Origin: Cryomorphaceae bacterium
GTDB lineage: Bacteria; Bacteroidota; Bacteroidia; Flavobacteriales; Schleiferiaceae
Length of the DNA stretch: 54,061 nt
Reading direction: 5' to 3'
Assembly (NCBI GenBank): GCA_020832345.1
Contig: JAFIEY010000110.1
Location: 1-54,061, forward strand
Shown: positions 16,469 to 25,136 of the stretch, piece by piece
Position numbering within the stretch: position 1 is the stretch's first letter
Layout: each line of letters starts with the position of its first letter
Notes under the pieces: model-generated
The model's database searches: none
Told to the model about the DNA's origin: nothing
Seen by the model: the letters and a program-made list of their open reading frames with translations, nothing else
Translations under genes and position numbers: made by a program

Positions 16469-17632
16469 TTAAAGGTTGATCTTCACAAATTCAAGCCAGG
16501 ATTTTATCGAGGTTACACTAATATTTACCTCCACAGGATAGGTATCTGATTCGGGTGTGATAATAAAATTATTTTTGGTTTTTAGGTAGGAAATGACATT
16601 ACTAAATCCTTTGGATAAAGTTGGGGCATTGCTCCATTTAATTTCAGCAGCGACAATTGGTGTTTCATTTTTGGTAATCACAATATCGGCCTCCGCGCCT
16701 TCGTGCGTGCGAAAAAACCACAAATTGTATCCTTCAGGTAAAACAGATTGGGTCTGATTTATCACAAAACCTTCCCATGAAAGTCCGATTTGAGGATGCA
16801 ATAAAACAGATTGAAAATTCTCTAATCCAAACAGCGCGTGGTATAATCCTGAGTCAGCAATATACACTTTTGGACTTTTCACCAATCGCTTTTTGACATT
16901 GGTAAACCAAGGATTTAAAACGGTAATAATATATGACTGCTCCATATAATTGATGCATTTGCGTACAGTTGGCCTGCTTACACCGAGTGCATTTGAGATG
17001 TTTTCAATATTGAGCAACTGACCCTGAGCGTGTGCAATCAGATGTAAAAGTTTTCTTGTAATCACATTACTGGTTCCCAAACCCAAAAGCGGCAATTCTC
17101 TCTCGGTGTATGTGTTAATAAAATTCACCCGCCATCTCAAACTTAAAATATCAGTTTTCTTGAGTAGCGTTTCGGGAAAACCACCGCGAACAAACAGGGT
17201 TTTCCAATCCACCTTGTGACCAATTTCGAGTAAGCTAAACGGGTACATTCTCAAATATGCAACGCGTCCGGCAAGTGATTCTGAGCTGTCCCTAAGCAAT
17301 TTGGGTGAAGCAGAACCCAGAAGGATATAACGTCCCGGTACTCGGTTTCGATCAATTAGTGCGCGAAGGACCGGGAAAATTTCTGGTTTATGATGAATCT
17401 CATCAAGAATAACACAATCACTTTTTAAAGCCTCTAAAAAAAGCGTCGGATTTTGCAGCTTAGCTAAGTCTTCAGGAAATTCCAAATCCAAATAGTGCGT
17501 GGATTTTTTATTCAAACTTACGATTGACTTTGCCAAAGTTGTTTTGCCAACTTGACGAGGTCCGGTTAAAACTACGGCGGGAACATCGTCCAAATAATCT
17601 AATAATTGGCCAAAAGCATGTCTGTTTTTCAT
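16469..17632 (-). CDS. AAA ATPase with DUF4143 C-terminal domain
   Basis: The 387-residue protein has an AAA_14 domain with Walker A GPRQVGKTT (24-32), Walker B VILDEIH (74-80) and sensor GSASPKLL. A winged-helix-like segment follows (NISNALGVSRPTVRKCINYM). The C-terminal DUF4143 region has EADIVI then AAEIKWS, the D...ExK spacing of PD-(D/E)XK nuclease folds. Such proteins are patchily distributed and often found alone, and their biological role is not settled. It is monocistronic. Its upstream region contains about 2.5 tandem copies of a 53-bp hairpin unit, which could bind its own winged-helix domain; that is inference. Confidence 0.9.
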   Translation of the reverse strand: MKNRHAFGQLLDYLDDVPAVVLTGPRQVGKTTLAKSIVSLNKKSTHYLDLEFPEDLAKLQNPTLFLEALKSDCVILDEIHHKPEIFPVLRALIDRNRVPGRYILLGSASPKLLRDSSESLAGRVAYLRMYPFSLLEIGHKVDWKTLFVRGGFPETLLKKTDILSLRWRVNFINTYTERELPLLGLGTSNVITRKLLHLIAHAQGQLLNIENISNALGVSRPTVRKCINYMEQSYIITVLNPWFTNVKKRLVKSPKVYIADSGLYHALFGLENFQSVLLHPQIGLSWEGFVINQTQSVLPEGYNLWFFRTHEGAEADIVITKNETPIVAAEIKWSNAPTLSKGFSNVISYLKTKNNFIITPESDTYPVEVNISVTSIKSWLEFVKINL

Positions 17633-19842: not shown

Positions 19843-20991
19843 CTATTTGGCGTAAGTGGGGCCTATTTCCACCAATTTTTCAATCCAATGATCCAATGAC
19901 CACTCACCATTGGAAGGTGCATTAGCCGCTTCAATGGTTCGTCTTCCGGCTTCTTTCAAATTGGCGATATTTTCAGGAGAAGCATCTGCCATGTCCTTTT
20001 CGTAAAGCGGTGTTACATCAGTGTCAAAACCGCGCAATTCTCCGGGCACATCAATCCTTTTGTAATTTTTATGCATATCATCTCCCAGGGTTTCAAACAA
20101 TAAGCGCAGTTGATAATTTACCGTATCCTGTGCGCCGTCCATCATAATGGTAGGTATTGATTTTGCCCAGGAAATAACGCCCCAATTATTTGCACTGCTT
20201 TTATTTTCACTATTGTCCTTTTGGGCACCCGTTCCCAAAGATAAAATCATCATCTCGCTGGCTTTGGGATTTTCTATTTTTAATTCTTTGAAGTCTGTAG
20301 TTCTGGCCTCTGCGTATGCACACATGGCCGGGTTATTGGCAAAAACACCACCGTCTAGATTTACCATTTTCAACTTTTTATAGGGGTGCTCGGGGTAATT
20401 CTCAATTTTGGCCGGCGGAAAGTACGTGGGTGCAGCCGAAGTTGAACGCGCAACATCCCGCAATAAATAACGTCTTTTTTTCGCTTTCTCCTCGTTTTGT
20501 TCATGACTATTAAAGAAAACCGTGCTTTGATCCTTCAAATTAAAAGTGGTAATGATGCACGGTTTCATCAAATCGTGGAAATATAGTTCCTTAAAGTATT
20601 TTTTAAACAGGAACTCAATTTGTTTTGGATTATAATCTGTGGCATTAAACAATTGCCTTATTCCGAAAAACGATCTACGCTTGGAGTCATTAAAAATCGA
20701 ATAGCCATGTTTTTCATAAAGCTTTAGAGCTTTAGTTGCGGGATACATGCTACTCGGGCCATCGGGTTCATTTTTATTATTGGGCAATAAATACATACAA
20801 CCCAAAATGCCACCTGTACTTGTGCCTACAACCATATCGAAGTAATCCGAAATTCGGGCGTTTTTGTTTTTTGAAAATTCCTGAATCTTCTCTTCGATAT
20901 GAACCATCACCATTGCGGGAATGATGCCTCGAATTCCACCTCCATCCAGACTCAAGATGCGGACTTTTTTGTTGCTTTTTTCGTTTGACAT
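19843..20991 (-). CDS. Patatin-like phospholipase
   Basis: The 382-residue acyl hydrolase has the complete patatin catalytic set: oxyanion-hole motif SLDGGGIRG (residues 17-25), nucleophile elbow GTSTGG with the catalytic Ser, and the Asp of the NLDGGVFANNP block. This is the soluble plant-patatin/iPLA2-like type with no membrane or beta-barrel domain, so probably cytoplasmic and acting on phospholipid acyl chains. The ATG at 20991 is preferred to 21018 because it fits the family start. It lies 65 bases downstream of the MSEP-CTERM gene on the same strand and may share its transcript. Confidence 0.9.
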   Translation of the reverse strand: MSNEKSNKKVRILSLDGGGIRGIIPAMVMVHIEEKIQEFSKNKNARISDYFDMVVGTSTGGILGCMYLLPNNKNEPDGPSSMYPATKALKLYEKHGYSIFNDSKRRSFFGIRQLFNATDYNPKQIEFLFKKYFKELYFHDLMKPCIITTFNLKDQSTVFFNSHEQNEEKAKKRRYLLRDVARSTSAAPTYFPPAKIENYPEHPYKKLKMVNLDGGVFANNPAMCAYAEARTTDFKELKIENPKASEMMILSLGTGAQKDNSENKSSANNWGVISWAKSIPTIMMDGAQDTVNYQLRLLFETLGDDMHKNYKRIDVPGELRGFDTDVTPLYEKDMADASPENIANLKEAGRRTIEAANAPSNGEWSLDHWIEKLVEIGPTYAK

Positions 20992-21056
20992 GGCTTTGCA
21001 GTTTAAAATTTTCCGCAAGCTATCAAAATTTTACAAATATTTAAGCCCCTTTTGTA

Positions 21057-23819
21057 TTATCTTATTGTTTTAATGTACAAACGGTAGCTCAACCAAAATA
21101 AACCGCAAATAATTAAAAGCCAAAAAATACCCTTGGGTTCAGACATGCCCATCAATTGATCACTTACATCAAATCTGGCATCACCCTTTAATACTTCCGC
21201 TTGTTTTCGCGCCAACATTTCGCGTTGCGCATCGGTTTCCACCACAATAAATGCCGTTACGGGTGTCAAAACTCCGGCAAAAAAACTTTGCTGTACCAAT
21301 GGAAGCCAATACGAATCGTAGTTTTTCGGATTAATTACGCGTTGTTTGTGCGCCGATTGCAATACCATACCGTTCCCCCAGAAATCAGTGGAATCGGTCA
21401 GTGCCCAATCCGGTTCATGATTTAAAAAATACACCTCATCGCTTTCATCATCGCGTAACCAGGTCGTGAGAGCGCTCCTTCCCGGCCAGGCAACTACCTC
21501 GCGCAAGCCTGGGAAGTTGGGACTTTTTTCGCACAGCGATTTAGACCACAACCGTCGCGGATAAAGCGTACCATCCGGCTTCATTTCAAAATAATAATCC
21601 CCATCCGGATAGGTAAATCGAAAATCATCAAAATCATCGGGAATGATGGCGTATTTCATACTATCAGAAACCACGACCATGACCGGAACCCGTTCCTCCT
21701 TTGCTGCAATAGAATTTCGCAAAACTTGCTCTATGGCGCGTTCCAGGAAAAAAGCACCCTCAGACATGCGACCGTTTAATGCATTCCAATTTTCCGAATA
21801 CTTAAAATTTCTCCCCACCGAACCAGCCATTGTAACCACAGCATCTTCGGCCAAATCCGGATGTCGGGATATCAACTGCTGTATTTGATTTCGGCGAAAT
21901 TCACTAAGGGGAATGGTCGCATCAATAATAAAATGAAAGTAGGGTCTGCGTTGCAAACGATCTCCTATTTGTTTGTCACTTCCGGTGACCAAACCGCACA
22001 CGCCTTCCATTTCCCAACTTTTTGGGGTTTCGGTCGGTTCACCTAAAGTAAACGACCAGTCATCAATGGTAAATTGCACGGGATTTCGGTGTACAAGTTC
22101 AAATCCGGTTTTACGGGTTTCGTTATCTGAAAATGGAAACACCCTAAATTCTAGTGCATTACCCCGACTGTAAAACAACAATCCCGGATCTCGCTTTTGC
22201 ACATTCCGAATAAGCGAATATATCCAAATCGCAGACTTCTTTTCCACCAATTGTCCTTTTTCTATAGTGCCAAAAACATCCAAATAATAATCGCTGACAA
22301 AACATCCTTCTGGAAGTTGAAATCGGGTGGAATATTCCGCGAGATTGGATTGCGAATGATTGGTAATTTCCAGATCAATTTGACTTACCCAGCTACTGCG
22401 ATTTTCATCGTAATAACTTTCCGCTTTGGCTTCACTTATAATTACCAAATTGGAAACAGAAGAAGATGAGGTAACTGTTGGGGATTTTTGCACGCCCAAA
22501 AACACCTGCTCTAAAAGGTCGATATTCTCATTGGACAAAGTCATTCGGTCAAAAACCAACCACTGGTAGAACCCCGATATAAATGGTACGGTTTCTTCTA
22601 AAAAATCCATATTCCTTAAACTCCTTCGGTTGTTTAATCTTGCATATTTTATAGAGGATCGCAAAATTTTTGCATTCACCGAATAATCGACCCCTGGATC
22701 GGGTGTGTGGAGATAGGTCAGGGCCGTATTGAGATTGGCGCGTTGCATTAACCCGTAAACCGTCACCGTAGTAGGCAAAATCAAAAAAGTTACAATCAAA
22801 CCGGCAAATAAAAAGGATTTTCCGTAATGGTCTTTCAAATATTTAAAATCGCGCATCAGACTTTTAAAATGAATGGCAGCAACGACCAGTGGTGTAAGCA
22901 TTAATATGCCTATGCCCAGAAAAATAATTAACACAATAGAGATGGGGAAGAATGGAAAAAACACCAGAAAAAAGTAGGCCGAAAATGCAAAAGTGAAACC
23001 CTTTCCCAAAAAGATAAGCAATCGCATAAAGGGAGCATCCATTCGCGGAAGGGAAAGCAGAATTCCGTTTAGAATTGCGAGGGCAAAAAAGCTGAAATGC
23101 GAGAAGTCTCCAAAAACGCTCATCTCAAGGGAAAGAATAAGTCCAAAAAGCGGTAAAACCAAAGTAATAATTGCCGTGGAAATCCAGCTTTCCATTACGT
23201 TGTGTTTGGCTCGAAAAAGCATCCAATTGGAAAAATATATCAGAAAAAAGAGTAAAATGCTGACGCCTAATACCACGGAAACAAGATAAACATATTTCAG
23301 TGATTCAAAATAAATGAATAACTCGAAAAAATTCAATACAATATATGCCATGATGAATATAACCACCCCGGCAAGGAAAAAATATCCCATTCTCGTCTCC
23401 AGCCATTTGGGAAGAATCTCAATCAGGCAAACCATTCCGTAGAAAACACCAATGCCTAAAAAAGTGAAAACAATTAATACCGGACTCATGACAAACATCC
23501 AGCTGGGCAAATTCATCGTCAAAACATTATCGATAAATAAAAAGAAGAATAACACGATGACCAAACAATACAGAATGTGCAGTAAAACAAACCCCTTTTG
23601 AATCAAATGTTTTTTGTACAAACACCACAAGCTATAAAACAAAGTTGCCACCAAATGAAAAGCAATGGCTCCAAAGTAAAACATGAACATAGTTTGTTCC
23701 TTGTCGCTAATTTGGGTTTTTAACAACTGAAAATCATAGTGCCCTAGGATTAACATAATGGCCAGGGGTAATGAAATAAACAGAATGGCAAAGAGGGGAT
23801 TACGTGCGCTATTTGTCAT
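21057..23819 (-). CDS. MSEP-CTERM sorting-domain protein with VIT-like domain, exosortase K substrate
   Basis: This is a 920-residue membrane protein. Residues 1-360 hold about ten transmembrane helices. Residues about 440-600 look like a VIT domain (AKAESYYDENRSSWVSQIDL, LPEGCFVSDYYLDV). A VWA-like region follows (YFHFIIDATIPLSEFRRNQI) whose MIDAS motif is degenerate. The C-terminus is a sorting tag: Met-Ser-Glu-Pro (892-895), a hydrophobic helix and a basic end (YRLYIKTIR). This architecture matches the MSEP-CTERM family, known as the dedicated target of exosortase K, which is encoded three bases upstream here. The tag is presumably cut near MSEP and the protein transferred to an unknown acceptor. 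Confidence 0.88.
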   Translation of the reverse strand: MTNSARNPLFAILFISLPLAIMLILGHYDFQLLKTQISDKEQTMFMFYFGAIAFHLVATLFYSLWCLYKKHLIQKGFVLLHILYCLVIVLFFFLFIDNVLTMNLPSWMFVMSPVLIVFTFLGIGVFYGMVCLIEILPKWLETRMGYFFLAGVVIFIMAYIVLNFFELFIYFESLKYVYLVSVVLGVSILLFFLIYFSNWMLFRAKHNVMESWISTAIITLVLPLFGLILSLEMSVFGDFSHFSFFALAILNGILLSLPRMDAPFMRLLIFLGKGFTFAFSAYFFLVFFPFFPISIVLIIFLGIGILMLTPLVVAAIHFKSLMRDFKYLKDHYGKSFLFAGLIVTFLILPTTVTVYGLMQRANLNTALTYLHTPDPGVDYSVNAKILRSSIKYARLNNRRSLRNMDFLEETVPFISGFYQWLVFDRMTLSNENIDLLEQVFLGVQKSPTVTSSSSVSNLVIISEAKAESYYDENRSSWVSQIDLEITNHSQSNLAEYSTRFQLPEGCFVSDYYLDVFGTIEKGQLVEKKSAIWIYSLIRNVQKRDPGLLFYSRGNALEFRVFPFSDNETRKTGFELVHRNPVQFTIDDWSFTLGEPTETPKSWEMEGVCGLVTGSDKQIGDRLQRRPYFHFIIDATIPLSEFRRNQIQQLISRHPDLAEDAVVTMAGSVGRNFKYSENWNALNGRMSEGAFFLERAIEQVLRNSIAAKEERVPVMVVVSDSMKYAIIPDDFDDFRFTYPDGDYYFEMKPDGTLYPRRLWSKSLCEKSPNFPGLREVVAWPGRSALTTWLRDDESDEVYFLNHEPDWALTDSTDFWGNGMVLQSAHKQRVINPKNYDSYWLPLVQQSFFAGVLTPVTAFIVVETDAQREMLARKQAEVLKGDARFDVSDQLMGMSEPKGIFWLLIICGLFWLSYRLYIKTIR

Positions 23820-23822
23820 GAC

Positions 23823-24374
23823 TTATCGAAGTTTTATTTGAGACATGGAAAGAGAAGCATACTTTTTTATGAGGTAAAAACCAGCGAGAAATAAAGCAAT
23901 GGCGGAGAGAAAAACCGCGTTGCCTACCCACTCATGTAGTCGATAATGGGGGCCTGCGGGCAAAATACCATTGCCCCAAACCTGCACATAAATGGAAACC
24001 ATAATCCGCAAAGTATTTATCCCAACGGCAAAAAGAAAAGCCCAGAGGGGAATGAAGTAAAACACCAAAAAGCGCTGGTGTCTAAACAAAATAGACATGA
24101 AGGCGATGGACAACATAAAAAAAGACAAACCCGAACAGCTTTCGTTCAAAACCACCATTAGTTCTGGAAACACAAAACCAGAATCCACGACCATTTCGGT
24201 AGCAAAAAACTTCTGAATAAAAGATGCAGTCGGGTGAAGCAAGAGCGGGTGGAAGTGGGTAGAAAAGACATATACACAAAAGGTAACCGCGCTCATGGCG
24301 ACAAAGCGAAAGGCAGTTTTTCCGAAAATCATCCGGAAAATTTTGTCCAATGAAGTTTGGCTATCGGTTTGCAA
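23823..24374 (-). CDS. xrtK: Exosortase K
   Basis: Exosortases are integral membrane cysteine transpeptidases that process PEP-CTERM-like tags. The 183-residue protein has about five hydrophobic helices and the three exosortase catalytic residues in proper order: Cys80 in NESCSGLSFF, Arg123 in GINTLRIMV and His147 in HEWVGNAVF. Its small size and its neighbour with an MSEP tag identify type K. The gene is first in a unit with the substrate gene, with a three-base gap. A NusG-like gene diverges from it across a 255-base gap. Confidence 0.88.
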   Translation of the reverse strand: MQTDSQTSLDKIFRMIFGKTAFRFVAMSAVTFCVYVFSTHFHPLLLHPTASFIQKFFATEMVVDSGFVFPELMVVLNESCSGLSFFMLSIAFMSILFRHQRFLVFYFIPLWAFLFAVGINTLRIMVSIYVQVWGNGILPAGPHYRLHEWVGNAVFLSAIALFLAGFYLIKKYASLSMSQIKLR

Positions 24375-24580
24375 GTAGCATTTAAAATTTTCGACCTAAC
24401 ATGAATTTGGCTTTTTTAAAAAACCAAGAACCTATAAATCACATAAATTCCGGTAAGCATGACAAAAACCTGCCGATGCCTTTTAAAAACTCAAAACAAG
24501 CGTAAAATATTGCCTCAAAGATAGAAGCGAATTTTAAGAATAATTACGACAACAGCTATGATTTTTTATAAAGTTCATTG

Positions 24581-24588
24581 TTACTTTG
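24581..24588 (+). promoter_or_regulatory. Possible promoter -7 box of the NusG-like gene
   Basis: TTACTTTG, 41 bases before the ATG at 24630. It is one spacer base short of TAnnTTTG but of the same form as the box before ftsX. Confidence 0.35.
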
Positions 24589-24629
24589 CCATTCTCTTAC
24601 ACTACACTATTCACAGCAAACGAAATTTA

Positions 24630-25136
24630 ATGAACTGGTACGTCATTTATACAAAACCTCGGGCGGAAAAGAAAACGGCCGATTTATTGGAAAGACGGGG
24701 TATTGAGACCTATTGTCCGGTACAACGACAGCTCAGGCAATGGAGCGATCGGAAGAAATGGGTGGAAATGGTCGTGATTCCGTCTTATGTATTTGTGCGA
24801 TGCGAGGAAAACCAAAGACACCGAGTAATAAACGAACCCGGCGTATTAAACTTTGTCTATTGGCTGGGAAAGCCCGCCTTGGTTCGCGATGAAGAGCTCA
24901 AGCGGCTTCAAGATTTCTTGCAAGAATACAACAACCACGAAATTTCTTATGAAGAATTAAAACCCGGAACAAAAATCCGGGTAGAAGGCGGCCCCATGGA
25001 CAGCAAAACGGGTGTGGTGGTAAAGGTGTCAAAAACCAAGGCGCGTATAGAATTCCATGGAATGGGGATGGCGTTTATTGCCACCATCAAGCGCTCACAG
25101 GTTAAAAAAGAAAAAGAATCTGCCGAAAATCAATAA
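24630..25136 (+). CDS. NusG-family antiterminator, UpxY/RfaH-like
   Basis: The 168-residue NusG paralogue has an N-terminal NGN domain (MNWYVIYTKPRAEKKTADLL to about residue 100) and a C-terminal KOW domain (PGTKIRVEGGPMDSKTGVVV). NGN-KOW factors of this length in Bacteroidota (UpxY type) let RNA polymerase pass through long polysaccharide operons. Here no such operon follows: the next gene is convergent and overlaps the stop by seven bases. It would have to act in trans, or be a relic. The ATG at 24630 gives the normal family start; the longer frame from 24558 is unlikely. Confidence 0.88.
   Translation: MNWYVIYTKPRAEKKTADLLERRGIETYCPVQRQLRQWSDRKKWVEMVVIPSYVFVRCEENQRHRVINEPGVLNFVYWLGKPALVRDEELKRLQDFLQEYNNHEISYEELKPGTKIRVEGGPMDSKTGVVVKVSKTKARIEFHGMGMAFIATIKRSQVKKEKESAENQ

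Follow-up and report, generated by a model that had tools for sequence, protein, structure and literature searches.

Where an exosortase gene lies directly upstream of a gene for a large protein with a C-terminal sorting tag, the question arises whether the enzyme serves that one protein only, and what becomes of the protein's C-terminus once the tag has been recognised. Such a pair, xrtK and an MSEP-CTERM protein gene, lies in the stretch analysed here (the window), which comprises 54,061 nucleotides of contig JAFIEY010000110.1 of a Cryomorphaceae bacterium (assembly GCA_020832345.1). We consider it likely that the two genes form a dedicated exosortase system, in which XrtK recognises the MSEP tag of the adjacent protein, trims it and passes the C-terminus to an acceptor in the envelope. 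The pairing, the single tag per genome, the change of tag with the enzyme, and the predicted topology and fold are supported by computation.

The enzyme, its partner and the single tag

The two open reading frames (ORFs) are on the minus strand with 3 bases between them; the smaller starts at a TTG and the larger at an ATG (Table 1), and both frames are intact. They are a known kind of pairing, XrtK / MSEP-CTERM (TIGR04287, TIGR04286), as the first-pass annotation had said from sequence families. The window has in common with these systems the two proteins, their order, the tag and the Cys-Arg-His set, and differs from them in an XrtK that scores under the family cut-off. Despite this score, TIGR04287 was the best-scoring exosortase family for the enzyme, which also exceeded the cut-off of 23 for the general exosortase/archaeosortase model TIGR04178 (30.8 bits). 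Six positions are invariant in the 77 aligned XrtK rows, window included (P48, C80, G82, R123, H147 and G151), among them the Cys80, Arg123 and His147 that had been picked out beforehand. In a tree of 27 XrtK rows, a chosen subset, and five other exosortases, none of them XrtX, a branch with a bootstrap of 85, which is rough and not settled, and an approximate likelihood ratio (SH-aLRT) support of 96 separated XrtK, the window enzyme included, from the others; XrtN was the neighbouring group. By these comparisons the window enzyme is a divergent XrtK.

The 920-residue protein matched TIGR04286 over residues 6-911 and ends, as previously described, in the MSEP tag, a helix and a basic tail (Table 1). 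The partner alignment holds 78 of 81 rows, the incomplete L068, L105 and L111 being excluded, and M892, E894 and P895 of the tag are conserved in it to the extent given in Table 1. The helix that precedes the tag is also conserved, with E861, Q865 and Q873 each found in all 78 rows.

To follow the pairing across genomes, named genomes were scanned for relatives of the large protein, and of the 177 obtained the best 80 were kept. In 76 of these 80 loci an XrtK gene precedes that of the large protein on the same strand. Three of the other four (L033, L034 and L111) start at or near a contig end, and the fourth, L112 (tag MTAP), comes from a genome with a 120-bit XrtK on another contig. The spacing was measured in 74 pairs, leaving out the incomplete L068 and L105; all were within 290 bases, 62 lay between -40 and +20, and a 17-base overlap was the commonest arrangement. 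In overlapping samples, TIGR04286 was found over its cut-off in 5 of 395 phylum genomes, 10 of 395 class genomes and 17 of 120 genomes of one family (f10, discussed below), and XrtK in 3 of the 395 phylum genomes, a count that the sub-cut-off XrtK of the window does not enter. The class-wide sample added eight genomes, all with an MSEP tag and an adjacent XrtK (one of the eight proteins is frame-split in its assembly).

A profile of the MSEP tag was built from 58 of the 78 distinct tags and run on 10 genomes. In seven of the eight with XrtK there was exactly one strong match, the partner itself (E 5.4e-17 to 7.1e-8), and the next match was at E 0.05 or worse; in the genome of the window the single match was at E 7.1e-8 and the next at 0.30. 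The eighth (G137) was uninformative, as the profile missed the MDEP tag of its partner, and a strongly divergent second tag could likewise escape detection. The two genomes without XrtK gave nothing below E 0.49. Further MSEP-tagged proteins in the window's own genome, a check suggested by the first-pass annotation along with its proposal of a one-substrate system, were sought and were rejected because the tag profile found none. One enzyme with one substrate is therefore supported at the level of sequence. Our literature searches, in which most subscription journals were outside coverage, found no paper on exosortase K / XrtK or MSEP-CTERM.

Tag exchange and related sorting systems

The relatives without XrtK offer another view of the partnership, as they carry the tag of another enzyme. 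One genome (G166) encodes a TIGR04286 protein without an adjacent XrtK and with a PID-CTERM tail (28.9 bits, cut-off 26). Family f10, to which G166 belongs, is taken as Hymenobacteraceae, since two of the protein bodies found in it are the same, residue for residue, as in Hymenobacter norwichensis and H. actinosclerus. Among its 17 genomes with the protein, four have an MSEP tag and an adjacent XrtK, 12 have a PID-type tail without an adjacent XrtK and one has a broken gene. Whole-genome searches found XrtK in 4/4 of the MSEP-tagged, 0/12 of the PID-tailed and 0/1 of the broken group, and XrtX in 2/4, 12/12 and 1/1, respectively. The PID_CTERM cut-off of 26 was passed by eight of the 12 tails (L005, L154 and L159-L164), and a PLDDY variant is common to the four that stay under it (L156, L158, L165 and L166). 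One genome with both enzymes (G163) keeps MSEP on the partner and carries PID over the cut-off on six other frames. The broken MSEP-type gene (L167, genome G445) lies in a genome with two XrtX and no XrtK.

A quick tree of 34 bodies, with the tags left out, set the 12 PID-tailed proteins apart by a branch (SH-aLRT 98) amid MSEP-tagged relatives, which looks like a single exchange kept through two genus codes. It looks, from these sequences, as if the same body was re-tagged from MSEP to PID type as the enzyme changed from XrtK to XrtX, and this supports the XrtK / MSEP partnership. The literature searches met no account of an XrtK-to-XrtX exchange and no paper on PID-CTERM. Tag exchange as such has been published for proteins with VIT and vWA domains carrying GlyGly-CTERM, PEP-CTERM or LPXTG tags; according to the sections of that report available to us (PMC3237569), the same kind of body has passed between these sorting systems, and the LPXTG-tagged members have a dedicated sortase encoded alongside. 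Their enzymes and tags are other than those of the window. The same sections state that a signal peptide is present without exception in PEP-CTERM and LPXTG proteins, whereas the MSEP protein has a predicted 11-helix domain. The re-tagging in Hymenobacter could serve as a ready-made specificity test, with the same body, an MSEP or PID tag, and XrtK or XrtX.

The XrtX / PID-CTERM system (NF046081, NF046080) resembles the window's in that 12 genomes, all with XrtX, have PID-type tails on this same body. It differs in the number of tagged frames, several per genome and mostly short (in two XrtX genomes examined), and, in the 12 genomes, in placing XrtX and the MSEP-type gene on separate contigs. 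The tag-switched relatives, with PID-type tails and XrtX in the genome, also lack the tag that gives the MSEP-CTERM family its name. The XrtN system (TIGR04476, TIGR04477) likewise sets an exosortase beside a homologous VIT protein, and the window protein scores 58.9 bits to TIGR04477. It differs in its VPEP-type tag, its exosortase of about 420-440 residues, and the position of the enzyme gene after that of the substrate. Two such loci (L008 and L010, with L125 and L122) encode a VPEP-tagged VIT protein followed by XrtN (327.7 and 337.0 bits, cut-off 200); the one VIT protein of this system that was scored gave 861.6 bits to TIGR04477. Locus L009 shares the VPEP tag of the XrtN systems.

Besides XrtK, the genome of the window encodes XrtF (134.9 bits, cut-off 90) as its second exosortase, and three PID-CTERM mini-proteins (L113:1402-1590(+), L114:1486-1686(-) and L115:1372-1578(+)) of 62-68 residues, in which the tag, preceded by a signal peptide and a short Pro-rich stretch, can be made out by eye. 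As XrtF is the only other exosortase found there, these are candidate XrtF substrates, and this genome may have two separate sorting channels. The substrates of XrtF were left open by a 2024 paper on F. johnsoniae, as far as the accessible part of it goes (PMC10936215). Another genome with XrtF (G289; 225.4 bits, cut-off 90) encodes a similar 70-residue protein at 18.8 bits, under the PID cut-off of 26.

Predicted fold and the proposed fate of the C-terminus

An AlphaFold2 model from 73 rows had a mean predicted local distance difference test (pLDDT) score of 84.7 and a predicted template modelling (pTM) score of 0.83 for the whole protein, and 89.3 and 0.83 for residues 1-400. Eleven membrane helices were read from the model up to residue 371, with short pieces merged or omitted and the segments chosen manually. 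Over the 73 rows, the six predicted inner loops hold a mean of 2.0-3.4 Lys and Arg residues and the five predicted outer loops 0.0-1.3, a pattern that fits an N-terminus inside and a periplasmic ectodomain. The model and the loop charges suit 11 helices better than the ten previously counted. With the tag helix included, the tail ends inside in this model topology, like other sorting tags. An N-terminal signal peptide, as in exported PEP-CTERM proteins, is argued against by the 11 predicted helices, from which alone this was judged. As the predicted 11-helix domain would keep its anchor in the inner membrane, removal of the tag should not free the protein, and cutting should not release the product from the inner membrane to the cell surface.

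Pfam recognised only a VIT domain in the 920-residue protein (PF08487 at residues 480-570, 26.7 bits, cut-off 26.5), and PF08487 matched all five family members scanned at E up to 0.1. The vWA part aligned with BON1 at a VIA-align Z of 9.5 (Table 1), where models without clear relatives typically reach 7 to 8. Its metal site reads D-A-T-I-P, and a complete DxSxS motif of the metal ion-dependent adhesion site (MIDAS) is not found. The first-pass annotation had rightly noticed DAT in place of DxSxS and had called it notable. Family-wide, D633 is present in 77/78 rows, S or T at 635 in 73/78, the third Ser in 6/78 and D719 in 61/78; judged from this alignment, the degenerate motif is a family trait and not peculiar to the window.

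When the predicted model was searched with Foldseek, only three chains of inter-alpha-inhibitor heavy chain 1 (PDB 6fpy, 6fpz) were matched below E 0.001, at E 6e-7, and VIA-align gave Z 9.2 over 299 residues. The VIT/vWA part is therefore predicted to resemble heavy chain 1, with which it has the arrangement of VIT plus vWA in common. Heavy chain 1 differs as a secreted animal protein with a working MIDAS, and the likeness is one of predicted fold only, at 9% identity; the family profile had no match among PDB chains by sequence at E up to 0.1. The membrane domain alone reached a best Foldseek E of 2.0 and a best VIA Z of 8.2, the range of helical bundles, which is not informative on its fold. 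In heavy chains, according to the parts of two papers that were at hand (PMC7170535, PMC4661386), the pro-domain at the C-terminus is cut away, and the C-terminal Asp forms an ester with chondroitin sulfate before being transferred to hyaluronan.

In the mechanism that we propose, that of a dedicated transpeptidase-like system, XrtK, as a Cys-Arg-His membrane enzyme, would recognise the MSEP tag on the product of the adjacent gene and, as far as this was searched, on no other protein of the genome. The substrate would be a polytopic inner-membrane protein consisting of 11 helices, a periplasmic VIT/vWA ectodomain, the conserved helix and the tag. The attack by Cys80 would fall close to the Glu-Pro of MSEP, the last helix and the basic tail would be removed, and the new C-terminus would be handed to an envelope acceptor. 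The 11-helix domain would remain embedded in the inner membrane, and the reaction would either free or tether the periplasmic C-terminus. We infer cleavage, its position, the acceptor and the function: cutting at MSEP from family membership together with the change of tag with the enzyme, and transfer to a glycan or lipid from the fold likeness together with proposals of possible covalent linkage by exosortases in the available part of the literature (PMC12188702). By analogy with the heavy chain, we would favour a covalent bond to a glycan or lipid of the envelope, with a role in cell-envelope homeostasis, and the fold match could point to a concrete chemistry, an ester at the new C-terminus. 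In its fullest form, this would mean that XrtK joins the periplasmic C-terminus of the 11-helix protein to an envelope glycan or lipid as a bacterial counterpart of the heavy chain-hyaluronan linkage, tying the inner membrane to the envelope without sorting anything out of the membrane, and that exosortases K, N and X took over the VIT/vWA body by tag exchange, which we think rather unlikely as a whole. No exosortase acceptor is named in the portions of the exosortase literature consulted, and one enzyme with one substrate that should stay in the inner membrane would be a near-simplest setting in which to seek one.

It is possible, if somewhat doubtful, that XrtK only cuts, and that loss of the C-terminal helix serves maturation or release, leaving the periplasmic domain able to move or oligomerise, without any covalent acceptor. 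The predicted 11-helix anchor already holds the protein, making a second anchor unneeded, and no neighbour family accompanies the pair in all loci (the commonest is found at 21 of 80); against this stand the covalent linkage proposed for exosortases and the glycan ester in which the similarly folded heavy chains end. Another reading, to which we give a low probability, is that of a regulated switch, in which the protein senses the state of the envelope, perhaps with CreD-type partners, and is turned on or off by tag removal. At 24 of the 80 loci the pair is accompanied by a set comprising HTH_34, CreD or DUF4153, and DUF1361, and the five commonest families (HTH_34, an unnamed membrane protein, CreD, DUF4153 and DUF1361) are all on the strand of the pair. 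These neighbours are absent from the other 56 loci and from the window, although just 48 of the 80 loci extend 6 kb on both sides, so that 24 is a lower bound, and Pfam found VIT and no signalling domain in all five family members scanned.

Several observations weigh against the dedicated exosortase system as we propose it. The window XrtK scores 40.4 bits to TIGR04287, under the curated cut-off of 55, it alone deviates from the other 76 rows at position 159, and both XrtK and its MSEP partner have very long branches in their trees. Among the PID-type tails, those of L156, L158 and L166 reach only 25.2, 18.4 and 19.7 bits and that of L165 has no match, and the tag switch is one event, giving one natural experiment rather than twelve. 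The match to heavy chain 1 is loose (root-mean-square deviation (rmsd) 9.7), and its Z of 9.2 is barely over the 7 to 8 of models without clear relatives. Finally, the recurrent neighbours are all missing from the window, and the neighbour counts are raw, without a random-locus expectation. The low XrtK score and the long branches would also suit a pair that is decaying in this genome, with a divergent XrtK of low activity beside a drifting substrate, as would the changes at near-invariant XrtK positions (e.g. K78 to E, N84 to S and L159 to I) and a one-residue insertion in the tag region of the window protein. We regard such decay as very unlikely, given the intact frames and the retention of all six invariant XrtK residues. 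A role for the patatin-like lipase encoded next to the pair as a third part of the system, changing the lipid environment of the product, as once suggested, appears extremely improbable; the gene is on the same strand, with its ATG 65 bases downstream of the MSEP gene (38 from a TTG start), but a search at E up to 1e-3 found no counterpart in the fetched stretches of the 80 loci, and the protein resembles phospholipase effectors of the cyclic oligonucleotide-based antiphage signalling system (CBASS) type.

To the known pairing, the present analysis adds the re-tagging, the predicted 11-helix topology, the predicted likeness to the heavy chain fold and the recurrent envelope gene set.

Features, neighbouring genes and other observations

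The features of the pair are collected in Table 1. A scan for promoters and terminators remained at chance level, with 12 promoter-like sites against 12.5 expected and eight terminator-like sites against 6.5.

Table 1. Features of the xrtK / MSEP-CTERM pair in the window
Feature	Position	Strand	Evidence
xrtK, exosortase K, 183 aa from TTG	23823..24374	-	TIGR04287 40.4 bits, TIGR04178 30.8 bits; XrtK side of branch 85/96
Codon of presumed catalytic Cys80	24135..24137	-	C in 77/77 XrtK rows
Arg123 codon	24006..24008	-	R in 77/77 XrtK rows
His147 codon	23934..23936	-	H in 77/77 XrtK rows
MSEP-CTERM protein gene, 920 aa, sole predicted XrtK substrate	21057..23819	-	TIGR04286 680.9 bits, cut-off 150
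Membrane domain, residues 1-371, 11 predicted helices, N-terminus predicted inside	22707..23819	-	AlphaFold2 pLDDT 84.7 (full), 89.3 (domain); loop charges, 73 rows
VIT domain, residues ~457-596	22032..22451	-	PF08487 at 480-570; model span
vWA-like domain, residues ~621-790, incomplete MIDAS	21450..21959	-	VIA-align Z 9.5, rmsd 3.3, 145 residues to BON1; third Ser of DxSxS 6/78
C-terminal tag, residues 892-920: MSEP motif (21135-21146), helix, basic tail	21060..21146	-	M 78/78, E 77/78, P 78/78; tag profile 35 bits

The recurrent envelope gene set occurs among loci L038-L111, and at least two of its members are found together in 21 of the 24 loci. An HTH_34 regulator is present at 21 of the 80 loci, an unnamed membrane protein at 20, CreD at 12, and DUF4153 and DUF1361 at 11 each; these Pfam names rest on one or two members per family. 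CreD and DUF4153 never occur in the same fetched locus. Further members of the set are Coq4-like proteins (9 of 80), DUF2809/VanZ (6) and DUF218 (5). The CreD, HTH_34 and DUF1361 surroundings point to envelope upkeep and not to surface display.

The patatin-like phospholipase gene lies at 19843-21018 (-) of the window, and its product is CBASS effector-like (NF041079, 167.8 bits, cut-off 200; PADLOC phospholipase effector models, up to 218.9 bits). Its conservation beside the pair had been put forward as a check. At least 1,300 bases beyond the MSEP gene are held by 74 of the 80 fetched stretches, and none of the 80 loci is a close relative; as a partner of the pair, the patatin gene was rejected. 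Another gene on the minus strand (16469-17632) matches the PADLOC candidate defence family PDC-S01 at 279.6 bits. On the other side of the pair, divergent from xrtK, an UpxY-family antiterminator is encoded at 24558-25136 (+) (151.5 bits, cut-off 100), and the gene next to it, on the opposite strand, encodes a DUF2141 protein.

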